Shown piece by piece: positions 4,027 to 10,606 of a stretch of DNA of 64,000 nt; within the stretch, counting starts at the first letter, position 1; the number at the start of each line of letters is the position of its first letter. The translations under genes and the position numbers were made by a program. The notes beneath the pieces were generated by a model. That model searched no databases. It was not told the origin of the DNA and saw only the letters and a program-made list of their open reading frames with translations. Source of the DNA: Paraburkholderia aromaticivorans (GTDB lineage Bacteria; Pseudomonadota; Gammaproteobacteria; Burkholderiales; Burkholderiaceae); the NCBI RefSeq assembly GCF_012689525.1, contig NZ_CP051516.1, positions 3,472,001 to 3,536,000 on the forward strand, in the 5' to 3' direction.

Positions 4027-5421
4027 CTACAGATGCGGCACCGAAGCCGGCAATTCGCCGTGCGGCGTGGCGAGCGGCTCCCCTTCCATATGGCGCATCC
4101 CATGCGAGCACAGCAGCCGGTACAACGTGACGCGCGAGATGCCGAGTTCCTGCGCGGCGTCGCCGAGACGCCCGCGGTGACGCAACAGCGCCAGTTCGAT
4201 CGCCTGACGTTCGGCCGCTTCCCGCGCCTGCGCGAGCGATACCGGCACGATCTCCACGTATTCGGCGAGCTCGAGATCGCGCGCCGTGATCGCGCGCCCT
4301 TCCGACATCACGATGGCGCGCCGCACGCGGTTGATCAGCTCGCGCACATTGCCCGGCCAGCCGTAGTTATGCAGCGCCGCGATCGCGTCCGGCGCGAAGC
4401 CGCGCAAGCGGCGGCTTGCATCTTTCTTGAAACGTTCCAGCATGTGCCGCGCGAGCAGTTCGATATCCTTACCGCGCGCGCGCAGCGGCGGTTCATCGAT
4501 CTGCAATACGCACAGGCGGTGGTAGAGGTCGGAGCGGAACCGCCCTTCGATCATCGCCGCGGTCATATCCACGTGCGTGGCCGAGATGATGCGCACGTCG
4601 ACGTCGATCGCACCGTGCCCGCCGAGCCGCTCCACCTTGCGTTCCTGCAGGAAGCGCAGCAGGCTCGCCTGGCTTTCGAGCGGCAGGTCGCCGATTTCGT
4701 CGAGGAAGAGCGTGCCGCCGTTCGCCGCTTCCACCCGGCCGATCTTGCGTTGATTGGCGCCGGTGAACGCGCCGCGTTCATAGCCGAATAGTTCGGATTG
4801 CAATAGATGCGGCGGGATCGCGCCGCAGTTGATCGGCACGAAAGGCGCATTGCGCCGCGCCGAGCGCTCGTGAATCGCGACCGCCGTCAGTTCCTTGCCG
4901 GTGCCCGATTCGCCCGAGATGAATACCGGCGCGTCGGTCATCGCCACTTTGCGGATCGAACGGAACAGCGCGAGCATGGCGTCGCACGAGCCGACCATTT
5001 CGCCTTCGGCGCCTTGCGATGCATCGTTGGAGGCCGTTTCGCCGAGGGAAATCATGCCGTAGGCGTGACCCACCGAATCGACGATCCGGTCGCCCGAATA
5101 CGGCACCGTGACGTAGTCGAAACAGTAGTCGCGCACGAGCCGGCGCAACGCGGCGTCCTGCAGTTGACCCGGCATGGTGGCCGCGACCCAGCCGACGTTC
5201 GGCATGGTCAGGCAAGATTCGAAGGCGGCGATTTCGTGTGGCTGAAATTCGCTAGACAGATCCAGCAGGCCGCCAGCCGCCATTCCGGCGCGAACGGCCC
5301 GGCGCACGTCGCGCGCCGACCCCACGACTTCCACATGCCAGCCGCGCTGGTGAAACCGAGTATTCAGCTCCGCGCTCGGATCGCGCGAAACGTAAATCAG
5401 TTGCCGCGTTGCGGGTTCCAT
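4027..5421 (-). CDS. Sigma-54-dependent activator, VpsR-like
   Basis: 464 residues. The N-terminal 125 residues look like a degenerate receiver-like domain. The AAA+ domain has Walker A GESGTGKE (170-177), an intact sigma-54 contact loop GAFTGA (217-222) and Walker B LFLDEIGDL (238-246). The C-terminus is a Fis-type helix-turn-helix (RLGDAAQELGISRVTLYRLL). It is transcribed divergently from the amyloid-like operon, which has a -24/-12 promoter and an upstream palindrome, so it is the likely activator of that operon. A degraded paralogue lies in inverted orientation at 9327-10606. The signal sensed is unknown; the VpsR-like label is inference from architecture. Confidence 0.88.
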   Translation of the reverse strand: MEPATRQLIYVSRDPSAELNTRFHQRGWHVEVVGSARDVRRAVRAGMAAGGLLDLSSEFQPHEIAAFESCLTMPNVGWVAATMPGQLQDAALRRLVRDYCFDYVTVPYSGDRIVDSVGHAYGMISLGETASNDASQGAEGEMVGSCDAMLALFRSIRKVAMTDAPVFISGESGTGKELTAVAIHERSARRNAPFVPINCGAIPPHLLQSELFGYERGAFTGANQRKIGRVEAANGGTLFLDEIGDLPLESQASLLRFLQERKVERLGGHGAIDVDVRIISATHVDMTAAMIEGRFRSDLYHRLCVLQIDEPPLRARGKDIELLARHMLERFKKDASRRLRGFAPDAIAALHNYGWPGNVRELINRVRRAIVMSEGRAITARDLELAEYVEIVPVSLAQAREAAERQAIELALLRHRGRLGDAAQELGISRVTLYRLLCSHGMRHMEGEPLATPHGELPASVPHL

Positions 5422-5913: not shown

Positions 5914-5929
5914 TGGCACACGTTTCGCT
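5914..5929 (+). promoter_or_regulatory. Sigma-54 (-24/-12) promoter
   Basis: TGGCACACGTTTCGCT matches TGGCACG-N4-TTGCW with the essential GG and GC and correct spacing; deviations are A for G at position 7 and C for T at position 13. The predicted start is near 5940, giving a leader of about 17 bases with AAGGAG at 5944-5949 just before the ATG at 5957. Confidence 0.75.
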
Positions 5930-5956: not shown

Positions 5957-6454
5957 ATGCGACTCGCTTTCCGCATCGATCTGGGCGGCATTGCACCATG
6001 CGCGGTACTTTGCACCGCAATCGCACTGATCATGCTGCCCATTGGCGCCAATGGACAGGAAGCCGGACAGGCTCCATCCGCCACGCTGACGGAATCTACC
6101 GATGCAGGCTCCGCCATCTTCCCGAACGCCACGCTCGCCACGCCCACCTCATCCGATACGACGACGCGCGCCGCCACCCTATTCTCCCAGCTTGCCGCCA
6201 ACGCGCTGAGCATTCCGGCCGATCGTGCATCCGTGAACGATTTTTCGCGCGACGACCAGGTGCTCTCGCGGCAACGCGGCGGCGCGGTCGGCATGGTGAT
6301 GGTGGCCGCGACGCCGCAACTCATGCGCGGCAACGGCGGCAGCGGCAACAACGTGACGCTGTGGGACGAGATCGCCCCGCCCCCGCCTTTACCGATTCCG
6401 ATCGACGCAGCGCGCGCCGCCCAAGGCAACGTCGCCAACTATCAAAGAAAGTAG
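5957..6454 (+). CDS. Small exported protein with RGG motif, first gene of amyloid-like operon
   Basis: 165 residues. Residues 11-33 form a hydrophobic export signal (CTAIALIMLPIGANGQ). The middle is Ser/Thr-rich. Residues 99-109 read DDQVLSRQRGG followed by a small hydrophobic stretch, and the C-terminus has a PPPPLPIPID proline run. I do not recognise the family. The RGG resembles a double-glycine site, and a C39-type peptidase is encoded downstream in the same operon, so processing there is possible but unproven. The start is fixed by AAGGAG 7 bases upstream and by the sigma-54 promoter. Confidence 0.7.
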   Translation: MRLAFRIDLGGIAPCAVLCTAIALIMLPIGANGQEAGQAPSATLTESTDAGSAIFPNATLATPTSSDTTTRAATLFSQLAANALSIPADRASVNDFSRDDQVLSRQRGGAVGMVMVAATPQLMRGNGGSGNNVTLWDEIAPPPPLPIPIDAARAAQGNVANYQRK

Positions 6455-6556: not shown

Positions 6557-7083
6557 ATGACTGCCTCAAACCGGATGCCGCGCGCACTCAGGTCGCGCGT
6601 GTCGTCGCTCATCTCGTTGCCGGCGGCACTAACAAGCGTGCTGGTCTTGCTCAGCGCCTCTTTTGCCGTCGACGCCATGGCACAGCAGGCCGTCAATCCT
6701 GGCGACATCATCGTCGAGCGCACGGTTACGCCGCGCGACGCCTTCGTACCGGTGACGAGAAGTCAGGACCCGGTCGCCGTGCGCGCCACCACTTTCCCGG
6801 CTAACTCATTCAATCCGGCCGTCGCCCAGATCGTGGGCGATACCGATCTGACGAATGCGCACGGGTCGAGCGGCGTGGCGGACGGCGCGTGCTCGGCGGC
6901 ACCGGCATGCAGGCGGTCACCCAGATCCTCAGCGGCAAGGCGACCGGCAACAACGTGGCGCTTAATTCCGGCGGTATCGGCCTGCCCGCGCCGGGCATCG
7001 GCGGGACCATCACCTCGTCGGTGACGGGCGCGCTGGCGCCGCTGTTGAACGCGCTCACCGGCGCGCTTGGAGGGATGAAATGA
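6557..7083 (+). pseudogene. Exported protein of the amyloid-like operon, frameshifted
   Basis: The reading frame starts at the ATG at 6557 with a signal peptide (residues about 18-42, ending AMAQQ) and the motif VNPGDIIVERTVTPRDAFVPV. It leaves the coding frame near 6885-6889. The other frame continues with GGTGMQAVTQILSG...LNALTGALGGMK and stops at 7083, overlapping the next ATG by 4 bases. The total of 527 nt is 175 codons plus 2, consistent with one inserted GC dinucleotide in GGCGCGTGC. The repaired product would be 174 residues. Function unknown; part of the Fap-like operon by position. Confidence 0.7.
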
Positions 7084-7949
7084 GCCCGCTCGTGCATCCG
7101 CTCAAGCTTCGGACGCTACATGCGGCGCTGTGCGTCTGCGTGGGCGCTGCCCTGGTGGCGAACCACGCCCCCGGCTATCAGACCAGCCAGCAGGCAGCGG
7201 TGATCGCCGGCGGCTTCACGCACACCAGCCAGAACGCCGGCGGCCATATCGCAGCCGGCGGCTCGATCGGCGGCAACTACAACTACTCGGGCATCAACAC
7301 GCCGTTCGGCGGCGGCGGGACGTTCCACGCAGCCGGCGGACTCCAGGCCGGCTACAGGGAATCGAGCTACGCCAACACGTTGGGCGTGGCCGGCGGCTTC
7401 GAAGCATCGGAAGCATCCGGACAGGGCAAGGTGTGGGGCTACAAGGCCAGCGAAGGTTCGGGCAACCTGGGCATCAACATCGCGGAAGGCATCAGCAACG
7501 CCCAGAGCAATGACGTGTCGCTCGCCTCGGTCGACATCGGCAACGTGTTCGGCAATGCGCAGATCTTCAGCACGCAATCGTCGAGCGGCACCGCCCGGAT
7601 CAACAACTTCAATCTGAATGCGTCGATCGGGGATGGCTCGCTGTCGGGTGTGACGGGCAACGTCGGGGTGAACGTCGCCTCGGGTATCGGCAACGTGCAG
7701 AACAACAGCCTCGCCGGTGCCGTGACGACGACCAAGCCGGGCAACGCGCTGACCACGGCGATGGTCGCCACGGATGACAACTCGCAAACCGCCGGCATGA
7801 CGGTCACGGGTCAATTCCAGGGCACCGCGATGTTGGGTTCCAACGCGCTCGCTAACGCATCCGGCAACATCGGCGTGAATATCGCCGGCGGCGCGGGCAA
7901 CCTGCAGCACAACGGCCTTGCGATCGCTGCGCTGAACAGCGGCCACTAA
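7080..7949 (+). CDS. Fap-type amyloid subunit (FapB/FapC-like)
   Basis: 289 residues, Gly/Asn/Ala/Ser-rich, with a hydrophobic export signal at residues 11-30. Three imperfect repeats share GNxGxNxAxGxxNxQxN: residues 127-144, 192-209 and 261-278, separated by 65 and 69 residues. From memory, this matches the repeat type of the Pseudomonas functional amyloids FapB and FapC, spaced by variable linkers. Unlike those, no C-terminal CXXC is present. The first 120 residues are a Gly-rich region (GGFTHTSQNAGGHIAAGG). The ATG at 7080 overlaps the previous stop (ATGA), so translation is probably coupled. The frame is intact although its neighbours are broken. Confidence 0.75.
   Translation: MSPLVHPLKLRTLHAALCVCVGAALVANHAPGYQTSQQAAVIAGGFTHTSQNAGGHIAAGGSIGGNYNYSGINTPFGGGGTFHAAGGLQAGYRESSYANTLGVAGGFEASEASGQGKVWGYKASEGSGNLGINIAEGISNAQSNDVSLASVDIGNVFGNAQIFSTQSSSGTARINNFNLNASIGDGSLSGVTGNVGVNVASGIGNVQNNSLAGAVTTTKPGNALTTAMVATDDNSQTAGMTVTGQFQGTAMLGSNALANASGNIGVNIAGGAGNLQHNGLAIAALNSGH
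7458..7913 (+). repeat. Three amyloid-type protein repeats (DNA of R1-R3)
   Basis: R1 at 7458-7511, R2 at 7653-7706, R3 at 7860-7913. Encoded cores are SGNLGINIAEGISNAQSN, TGNVGVNVASGIGNVQNN and SGNIGVNIAGGAGNLQHN. Asn and Gln positions are in register in all three. Confidence 0.85.
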
Positions 7950-8044: not shown

Positions 8045-8462
8045 ATGTTGGGGCTCAGGAGGTACCCGGCGCTACAGTTCGCCGTAGCGCTGGCCAGCTG
8101 CACGCTGTGCGTGGGCCAAAGTTACGCGCAGGCGACCATCGACACGTCCACGCTGGCGGGCGTTCCGTTGAAAAAGACGGTGCGCTCGATGAAGGACATC
8201 CGCTACAGCCACATCGTCAATCAGCAGTTCGACTACAGCTGCGGTGCGGCGGCGCTGGCTACGCTCCTCAAATACGGCTATGGCATCGATATTCCGGAAA
8301 CCGAACTGATCCGCCGGATGATGGTGTTCTCCACGCCCGAAGTCGTTGTCAAGAATGGCTTCTCCATGCTCGACATGAAGAAATTCGTCGAGACCATCGG
8401 TTTGCGCGGCCGCGGCTTCCGGGTCAACGCCGACGCGCTCCAGCACTCGATCGCCGCCAGTT
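8045..8462 (+). pseudogene. C39-family peptidase (FapD-like), C-terminal half lost
   Basis: Starts at the ATG at 8045 after GGGGAGA. It has a signal peptide (residues 9-29) and the C39 block QFDYSCGAAALATLLKY with the catalytic Cys at residue 66, and is peptidase-like to about residue 134 (GFRVNADALQ). The frame then runs 50 unrelated residues to a stop at 8614; that tail is the next gene read in the wrong frame. The His and Asp of the C39 triad, expected in the lost half, are absent, so the product cannot be an active peptidase. In Fap operons the C39 protein is FapD. Confidence 0.78.
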
Positions 8463-9302
8463 GCAGTTGTCAGCGCGCTCGACGCGATTTTCCTCGGCAA
8501 CATCAACCTGGGCGAGACCAAGTCGCACCAGGTGATGGCGGACCTCGATACGCGCTACGGCCTGACCGACCGCATGAGTATCGACGTCGACGTGCCGTAC
8601 ATCTACCGGCATAGCAACTTCATTGTGGGTGGAGCGGGCGGCGCGGCGAGCACGATGTCGGATGCGTCGGTGAACGGCAGCGATATCGGCGACGTCAACT
8701 TCGGGATCTACTACCAGTTCCTGAAGGAGACCAACAGCCTGCCGGACGTGGTCGGCAGCCTGCGCATCAAGGCGCCGACCGGCACCTCGCCGTTCGGCGA
8801 AAAGCTGGTGCAACTGGACGCCAACAACACCAATCTGGTGGCGCCGGGCAAGCTGCCCACCGGCACGGGCTTCTGGAACATCACGGCCGGCGTCTCGCTG
8901 TTGAAGACCTATGACCCGGTGGTGCTGTTCGGCAGCCTCTCTTACACGTACAACATCGCGCGCTCGTTCGCGGACATCTCGTCGGTGCAGGGGCAAACCC
9001 AGCCGGCGACGGTCAAGCTCGGCGACATCGTGCAGTTCGGCGGCGGCGTGGCGCTCGCATTCTCCGACAAGGACTCGGCCAGCATCTCGTACACGCTGGC
9101 GCTCGCACCCGAATCGAAGACACGCGCGCCCGGGGGCTCATACGAAAAAGTGCCAGGCAGCGAGACGACGGCCGCGGCGCTGAATTTTGGCCTGAACCAC
9201 GTCGTGAACAAGCACCTGACCATCAACGGCTCGGTCTCCGTGGGCTTGACGCCCGACGCGCCGAACTTCGTGGTCGGGCTGCCGTTTCCCTACACATTCT
9301 GA
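8463..9302 (+). pseudogene. Outer-membrane beta-barrel transporter (FapF-like), N-terminus lost
   Basis: The frame is open from about 8463 (SALDAIFLGNINLGETKSHQ) to the stop at 9302, but has no signal peptide. The first in-frame start codons (GTG 8532, ATG 8535) are internal to the conserved region. The sequence is beta-barrel-like, with alternating strands such as LDTRYGLTDRMSIDVDVPYIYR, and ends in PFPYTF, a terminal Phe typical of BAM substrates. By position and type it corresponds to FapF, the outer-membrane exporter of Fap amyloid, with moderate confidence. It abuts the C39 remnant with no start codon, so one deletion probably removed both ends. Confidence 0.7.
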
Positions 9303-9326: not shown

Positions 9327-10606
9327 GTGCGTGAATCACCTCATCTGACCAGTGTTGCTCCGGTCGCCGGAGCGGGGTCGGGAGCGCATCGGGCACGGGC
9401 GCTGCCGAACGAGATGGCGGCGGGCTGTCCCGTCGACGTCGCGACAAGCCGGCCTTCGGCGGTCGTGGCGACGATCGGTGGCGCGGCGCCTCGTGCGCCA
9501 CTACTGTTTCGACTTCGTCAAGGTGCCGGTGGCCAACGCCACGGTCGACTATCTGGTCGGCCACGCATACGGCATGGTGACGCTGTGCGATCCCGAAGTC
9601 GCGCCGCCCATGAGCGAGTCGGGCGACGAAGAAATGGTCGGCACCTGCGAGGCCATGCAGCAACTCTTTCGCACCATCCGGAAAGTGGCGAACACCGACG
9701 CGAGCGTGTTCATCTCCGGCGAGTCGGGCACCGGCAAGGAACTGACCGCGCTCGCGATTCACGAGCGTTCGCCGCGCCGCAAGGCGCCGTTCATCGCGAT
9801 CAATTGCGGCGCGATTCCGCACCATCTGCTGCAGTCCGAATTATTCGGCTATGAACGCGGCGCGTTCACCGGCGCGAATCAGCGCAAGATCGGCCGCGTC
9901 GAGGCCGCCGACGGCGGCACGCTGCTGCTCGACGAAATCGGCGACCTGCCGCTCGAAAGCTAGGCGAGCCTGCTGCGCTTTCTTCAGGAAGGCAAGATCG
10001 AGCGGCTCGGCGGACGCGAATCGATTCCCGTCGACGTGCGTATCATTTCCGCGACGCACGTCGATCTGGAAGGCGCGATGCGCGATGCGCGACGGCCAGT
10101 TCCGCGCCGACCTGTTTCACCGGCTCTGCGTCCTGCGGGTGGACGAGCCGCCGCTGCGCGCGCGCCGCAAGGACATCGAAATTCTCGCGCAGCACATCCT
10201 GCACAAGTTCAAGACCGACAGCGCGCGCAAGATCCGCGGCTTCAAGCCGTCGGCGATCGAGGCGCTCTACAACTACAACTGGCCCGGCAACGTCCGCGAG
10301 CTGATCAACCGGGTGCGCCGCGCGATCGTGATGGCGGAAAACAAGCTGATTTCCGCCGACGACTTCGATCTCGGGCACTTCACCGCGCAGCAGACCATGA
10401 CGCTCTCACAAGCGCGCGAGGCCGCCGAGAAGCGCGCGATCGAAGCGGCGCTGCTGCGCCATCGTCATCGGCTGAACGAGGCGGCGCTGGATCTGAATAT
10501 TTCGCGTGTGACGCTGTATCGTCTGATGGGTCAGCATGGGTTGCGCGAATTGAGTGCCGCCGACGAGAAGGCGGCGTTTGCCGCGGACGATAGCGCGCCG
10601 GAATGA
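9327..10606 (+). pseudogene. Sigma-54 activator paralogue, multiply broken
   Basis: Closely related to the 4027-5421 activator but inverted relative to it. The N-terminal domain is mostly gone; similarity resumes at RRLVRHYCFDF near 9487. It keeps GESGTGKE and GAFTGA. Then codon 9961-9963 is TAG where the intact paralogue has Gln251 (LPLES*ASLLRFLQE). A tandem duplication of CGCGATG (10074-10087) adds 7 bases and shifts the frame; the rest (DGQFRADLFHRLC to the Fis helix-turn-helix) continues in the new frame to 10606. No functional product is expected. Confidence 0.88.
10074..10087 (+). repeat. 7-bp tandem duplication causing a frameshift
   Basis: CGCGATG occurs twice in a row where the paralogous gene needs only one copy. 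Removing one copy restores the frame through AMRDGQFRADLF. Confidence 0.8.

Follow-up and report, generated by a model that had tools for sequence, protein, structure and literature searches.

Does an open reading frame (ORF) with three Fap-type repeats in the genome of Paraburkholderia aromaticivorans encode a new kind of amyloid fibre subunit? The ORF, 289 residues long, lies at coordinates 7080-7949 on the plus strand of the 64-kb stretch of DNA analysed here (the window). A first-pass annotation had proposed an amyloid fibre subunit, possibly of a distinct Fap subclass, with an export signal, a long Gly-rich N-terminus, three regularly spaced repeats and no CXXC motif. With a probability of about 0.85, we conclude that the ORF is a deletion chimera, composed of FapB residues 1-30 and FapC residues ~137-233 and ~302-463, in a recently inactivated fapABCDEF operon of Paraburkholderia.

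The three repeats are genuine. Searching with the core G-X4-N-X3-G-X6-N, taken from the repeat X15GX4NX3GX6NX7 (PMC3792158), gave copies starting at residues 128, 193 and 262, which confirms the proposed spacings of 65 and 69. Because none of 20,000 residue shuffles contained three cores (two were found in 59), their presence is beyond chance. The proposed Fap origin was also borne out. Solved FapC structures matched the ORF (9nqd, E 4.4e-14; 9u4u, E 6.9e-14), both sides having three repeats with conserved Gly/Asn/Gln, and so did the NCBIfam FapC model NF058558 (E 2.5e-15). The score of 57 bits is below the cut-off of 195, which is ill-suited to this group since an intact FapC from the same genus (genome G084, described below) fails it as well, with 58.2 bits. 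A Pfam search of the ORF gave nothing meaningful; its relatives carry the precomputed Pfam family PF27129. The AlphaFold model is all-beta and of low confidence (mean pLDDT 53, pTM 0.36), and the sole solved match that Foldseek found for it with E <= 0.001 was FapC 9u4u (E 7.7e-6). Both the profile and the low-confidence fold thus lead to FapC, in which each repeat corresponds to a single layer of a Greek-key cross-beta fold (PMC12392863), and the repeat part of the ORF would still resemble that protein.

A homologue search, which scored only the 7993 candidates with the most shared words, found 408 proteins with E <= 0.001. Named organisms among the best 120 of these were Paraburkholderia, Burkholderia or Trinickia. 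In 109 of the 120 the length was 440-510 residues, and all 109 full-length relatives contain exactly three cores and no CXXC. The ORF indeed lacks this motif, its two cysteines being residues 18 and 20, and in that respect it differs from FapC as described in PMC6173800, where CXXC is called conserved. Because the full-length relatives lack it too, its absence is a trait of the group and not of this ORF alone. Among the matches listed, the nearest relatives are ordinary 463-residue FapC proteins without CXXC. The full-length relatives inspected each carry a signal-like start of their own, together with an N-terminal stretch of some 135 residues that is absent from the ORF. A further close FapC relative, the incomplete metagenomic protein P0071 (160 residues), has no repeat 3, its end passing directly from linker 2 to the final residues; perhaps it is another decaying copy.

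Two genomes of the same genus with intact fapABCDEF served as references, P. xenovorans LB400 (G089, locus L024) and G084, which is probably P. phytofirmans as judged by its FapC. In both, the gene order is a small exported protein, fapA, fapB, fapC, fapD, fapE, fapF and a regulator. The NCBIfam FapA to FapF models each match the corresponding G084 protein, every score being under the curated cut-off; across the genus the FapF model gave matches in 83 of 97 genomes and passed its cut-off in none of the 97. The window is collinear with G084 over bases 1 to 64000. Location, order and neighbours of the operon are alike in the window and the references, and the remnants show 90-96% DNA identity over the fap part, but the operon is intact in LB400 and G084, whereas that of the window carries four large deletions and smaller lesions. 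These four (977, 207, 1822 and about 296 bp) are the only deletions above 150 bp relative to both references, and all lie within the operon and regulator 2. At 17.7 and 23.6 kb, LB400 differs in size whereas G084 does not, and an extra 3.7 kb at 61.4 kb in G084 is not present in LB400. The region contains the following features:

4027..5421, minus strand: regulator 1, a sigma-54 activator with a VpsR domain, divergent, intact, 464 aa (Pfam Sigma54_activat 228 bits, VpsR 71.8 bits; equal length in LB400)
5914..5929, plus strand: sigma-54-like -24/-12 site, 27 bp 5' of the ATG at 5957 (identical letters in G084)
5957..6454, plus strand: first operon gene, encoding a small protein that belongs to no family and whose start is signal-like (also present in LB400 and G084)
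6557..7083, plus strand: fapA, split into two ORFs, 6557-7024 and 6889-7083, where 1 bp is lost near 6885 (NCBIfam and alignment)
7080..7171, plus strand: fapB remnant, ~30 codons from the start codon onwards, which make up the signal region (87% identity to G084 FapB residues 1-30)
7171..7173, plus strand: junction A, fapB to fapC, in frame, 977 bp missing relative to G084 (genome comparison)
7172..7463, plus strand: fapC part 1, G084 FapC residues ~137-233 (genome comparison)
7458..7463, plus strand: junction B within fapC, in frame, 207 bp missing, at the 6-bp direct repeat TCGGGC (genome comparison)
7464..7949, plus strand: fapC part 2, G084 FapC residues ~302-463, carrying the three cores, the first starting at junction B
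8045..8447, plus strand: fapD remnant, residues 1-134 of 237 (Pfam Peptidase_C39; NF058616 positions 7-122 of 224)
8447..8448, plus strand: junction C, 1822 bp missing, comprising the end of fapD, the whole of fapE and the start of fapF (genome comparison)
8448..9302, plus strand: what is left of fapF, with 7 bp lost near 8473; the longest ORF, 8532-9302, is residues 223-478 of 478 (NF058560 320 bits)
9327..10606, plus strand: regulator 2, a sigma-54 activator, broken (Pfam and alignment)

Deletions A and B explain what had appeared to be distinguishing features. The N-terminus is signal-like, as annotated, but its residues 1-30 are those of FapB and not of FapC; likewise, the N-terminus is odd and Gly-rich, but as the product of these two deletions. 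The ORF is missing FapC residues 1-136, the body of fapB and ~69 further FapC residues, deletion B having taken 69 codons including the first half of repeat 1. Unlike Pseudomonas FapC, it therefore has a FapB signal, no FapC N-terminus and no first half of repeat 1. Junction A falls on the probable signal cleavage site of FapB, as judged by eye, and cleavage may thus be lost. Regulator 2 has about 296 bp missing near 9480 (junction D), a stop codon at 9961-9963 and a 7-bp tandem duplication near 10080; a 1-bp loss near 9476 was left out of the lesion count because it lies at junction D. The two regulators flanking the operon are related, being about 70% identical where compared. Three sigma-54-like sites were found against 2.19 expected, a number not above chance. 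The small protein encoded at 5957-6454 is possibly an unrecognised Fap component, and pieces of its gene occur among the operon scars of three other genomes (G136, G129 and G032).

The damage is concentrated in the operon and regulator 2. After 5 of 56 conserved ORFs that were outside the window or ran off its end had been dropped, 51 were tested, a set that does not contain fapA. All six ORFs of the operon and regulator 2 (fapB, fapC, fapD, fapE, fapF and part of regulator 2) were damaged, as compared to one flagged among the 45 others, namely orn, which differs only by an upstream start extension. The regulator-2 fragment escaped flagging in this test because an intact paralogue matched, and its damage was shown by separate alignment. 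A second filter, which required 80% identity and has neither fapC nor fapE in its count, flagged 7 of 51 tested window ORFs: fapA, fapB, fapD, fapF, regulator 2, the orn extension and L053:376-1518, which overlaps a conserved ORF on the opposite strand. In the flanks (160 kb), the same loose filter flagged 5 of 89 ORFs, individually unvetted, so background breakage is not zero; the 89 are what remained of 100 once 4 located at stretch ends and 7 lacking a match had been set aside. The chance that four randomly placed deletions all fall inside the operon stretch is about 3e-5, assuming independence.

A fault of assembly or sequencing, by which pieces of an operon that is intact in the strain were lost from the deposited sequence, is the alternative that survives best. 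The lesions are peculiar to the source genome: across the matches listed from 144 genomes of the genus, the junctions are spanned by the window's own match alone, and the same junctions were not seen in a sister species or second strain. The remnants also show no sign of relaxed selection. Amino-acid changes account for 19 of 61 substitutions on the window branch, as against 25 of 73 on the branch to G084 (P 0.72); the eight lesions are thus accompanied by few substitutions. Such a pattern would fit a sequence fault, and it also indicates that the decay is young. Compared with eleven intact neighbours (37 of 185), the share in the fap genes of the window branch is higher (P 0.08), and on the G084 branch the fap genes change faster too (25 of 73 versus 25 of 221). 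Assuming a neutral share of 0.72 for amino-acid changes, up to about 20% of the window branch could be post-inactivation. Against a fault, several kinds of lesion (large deletions, small indels, a stop codon and a tandem duplication) occur in one operon with sound neighbours, and the repeats at the junctions are about 0-8 bp, too short for the usual collapse in assembly. The lost operon DNA was found on none of the four contigs of the source genome, with no sign of a move elsewhere in it, and operon scars occur in other species. An assembly fault is thus unlikely as the cause.

Less probable still is that the fapB::fapC fusion works as a short amyloid, retained independently of the operon. Several observations could be read in its favour: the frame is open across two deletions with the FapB start codon retained, regulator 1 and the promoter-like site are intact, and the fold model has FapC 9u4u as its best solved match. 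In the last 161 codons none of the three window-branch changes alters the protein, three being too few to test selection. That both deletions in fapB and fapC preserve the reading frame is a point against decay; under the deletion-chimera reading, the open frame would have survived by chance. On the other side, repeat 1 has been deprived of its first half, the probable cleavage site is disrupted, confidence in the model is low, and the export partners are truncated or absent, with no second FapF found in the source genome as a substitute. We therefore consider a working fibre subunit unlikely in this genome, and of the annotated function the Fap-subunit descent remains. The related proposal that selection has kept the fusion after loss of the secretion genes, as a domesticated short amyloid in the periplasm or with another exit route, perhaps together with the orphan protein described below, is similarly remote. 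The idea of an intact Fap subclass in its own right, Gly-rich at the N-terminus and lacking CXXC, to which three regular repeats after a signal-like start had seemed to point, can be dismissed, since the nearest relatives are ordinary full-length FapC proteins and what sets the ORF apart coincides with the deletion junctions.

The deletion-chimera reading has consequences for secretion. In Pseudomonas, Fap subunits cross the outer membrane via FapF; FapC is no longer secreted when FapD is knocked out or altered in its active site, and its secretion is likewise described as requiring FapE and FapB (PMC5557850). The ancestral operon would have been an ordinary Fap system, its subunits exported via FapF with FapD assisting. 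What the window holds is dismantled machinery, with FapB down to its signal region of ~30 codons, FapE absent, FapD cut to 134 of 237 residues and the FapF ORF without the first 222 of 478 residues. Any fusion protein that is still made could enter the periplasm, where it might aggregate. Because FapB, FapD, FapE and FapF are truncated or gone, its own operon could hardly secrete it, and fibres would not be expected.

Outside the window, the source genome encodes an orphan Fap-like protein of 152 residues (L002:1429-1887, equal to G000:C3:3617289-3617744) with two repeat cores and a signal-like start. Its gene is unbroken and lies beside a tRNA gene, about 138 kb from the window ORF and outside any fap operon. 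The orphan and the 289-residue ORF both have Fap cores and a signal-like start and are about 41% identical over the repeat region. The orphan is absent from G084 and LB400. Matches of this type outside the operon (E <= 1.7e-18) occur in 44 of 144 genus genomes, and all 44 belong to the 117 with a strong fap match (P 1.5e-5, with cut-offs set post hoc and kinship uncorrected). Fragments are all that matches the orphan in G032, G065 and G129, genomes in which the operon is missing entirely or for the most part. Found together with a strong operon match, and as fragments in operon-poor genomes, the orphan could be an accessory subunit dependent on the operon.

Loss of Fap recurs in the genus. No match was found in 2 of 144 genomes, 22 had only matches weaker than E 1e-20, and G117, G065 and G041 had only partial matches, giving 27 genomes with absent, weak or partial matches and 117 with a strong one. 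Eight genomes, chosen for weak or odd matches, were examined for scars. Only pieces of the operon are kept in G041, G065, G032, G129 and G136, G021 has operon gaps and a fapF split across two frames, and longer operon stretches are retained in G043 and G117. In another genome, G049, FapC is split across two frames (C3:3247787-3249159; query residues 1-225 and 218-460), which may reflect inactivation at an early stage or an error in the sequence.

The occurrence of fap operons in Burkholderia and root-associated Burkholderiales was published in 2013, together with remains of partly deleted operons, one of them, a FapE match, in Burkholderia (PMC3792158). Those are fap remains likewise; the available parts of that paper treat them as false positives of HMM searches and give no lesion anatomy. 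The open-access papers searched contained no literature linking fap operon, pseudogene and amyloid, and among the matches listed none named both Paraburkholderia and 'fap operon'. The Fap system is thus known, and the window holds a newly seen decaying copy.

A decaying operon can yield an open, export-tagged and repeat-bearing ORF that mimics a new amyloid class, a tempting misreading that is corrected here. The genus further provides a snapshot of the loss of a biofilm-fibre system, with a strong operon match in most species and scars alone in some. The source genome is intermediate, its operon being broken while the unlinked orphan Fap-like protein is still whole.
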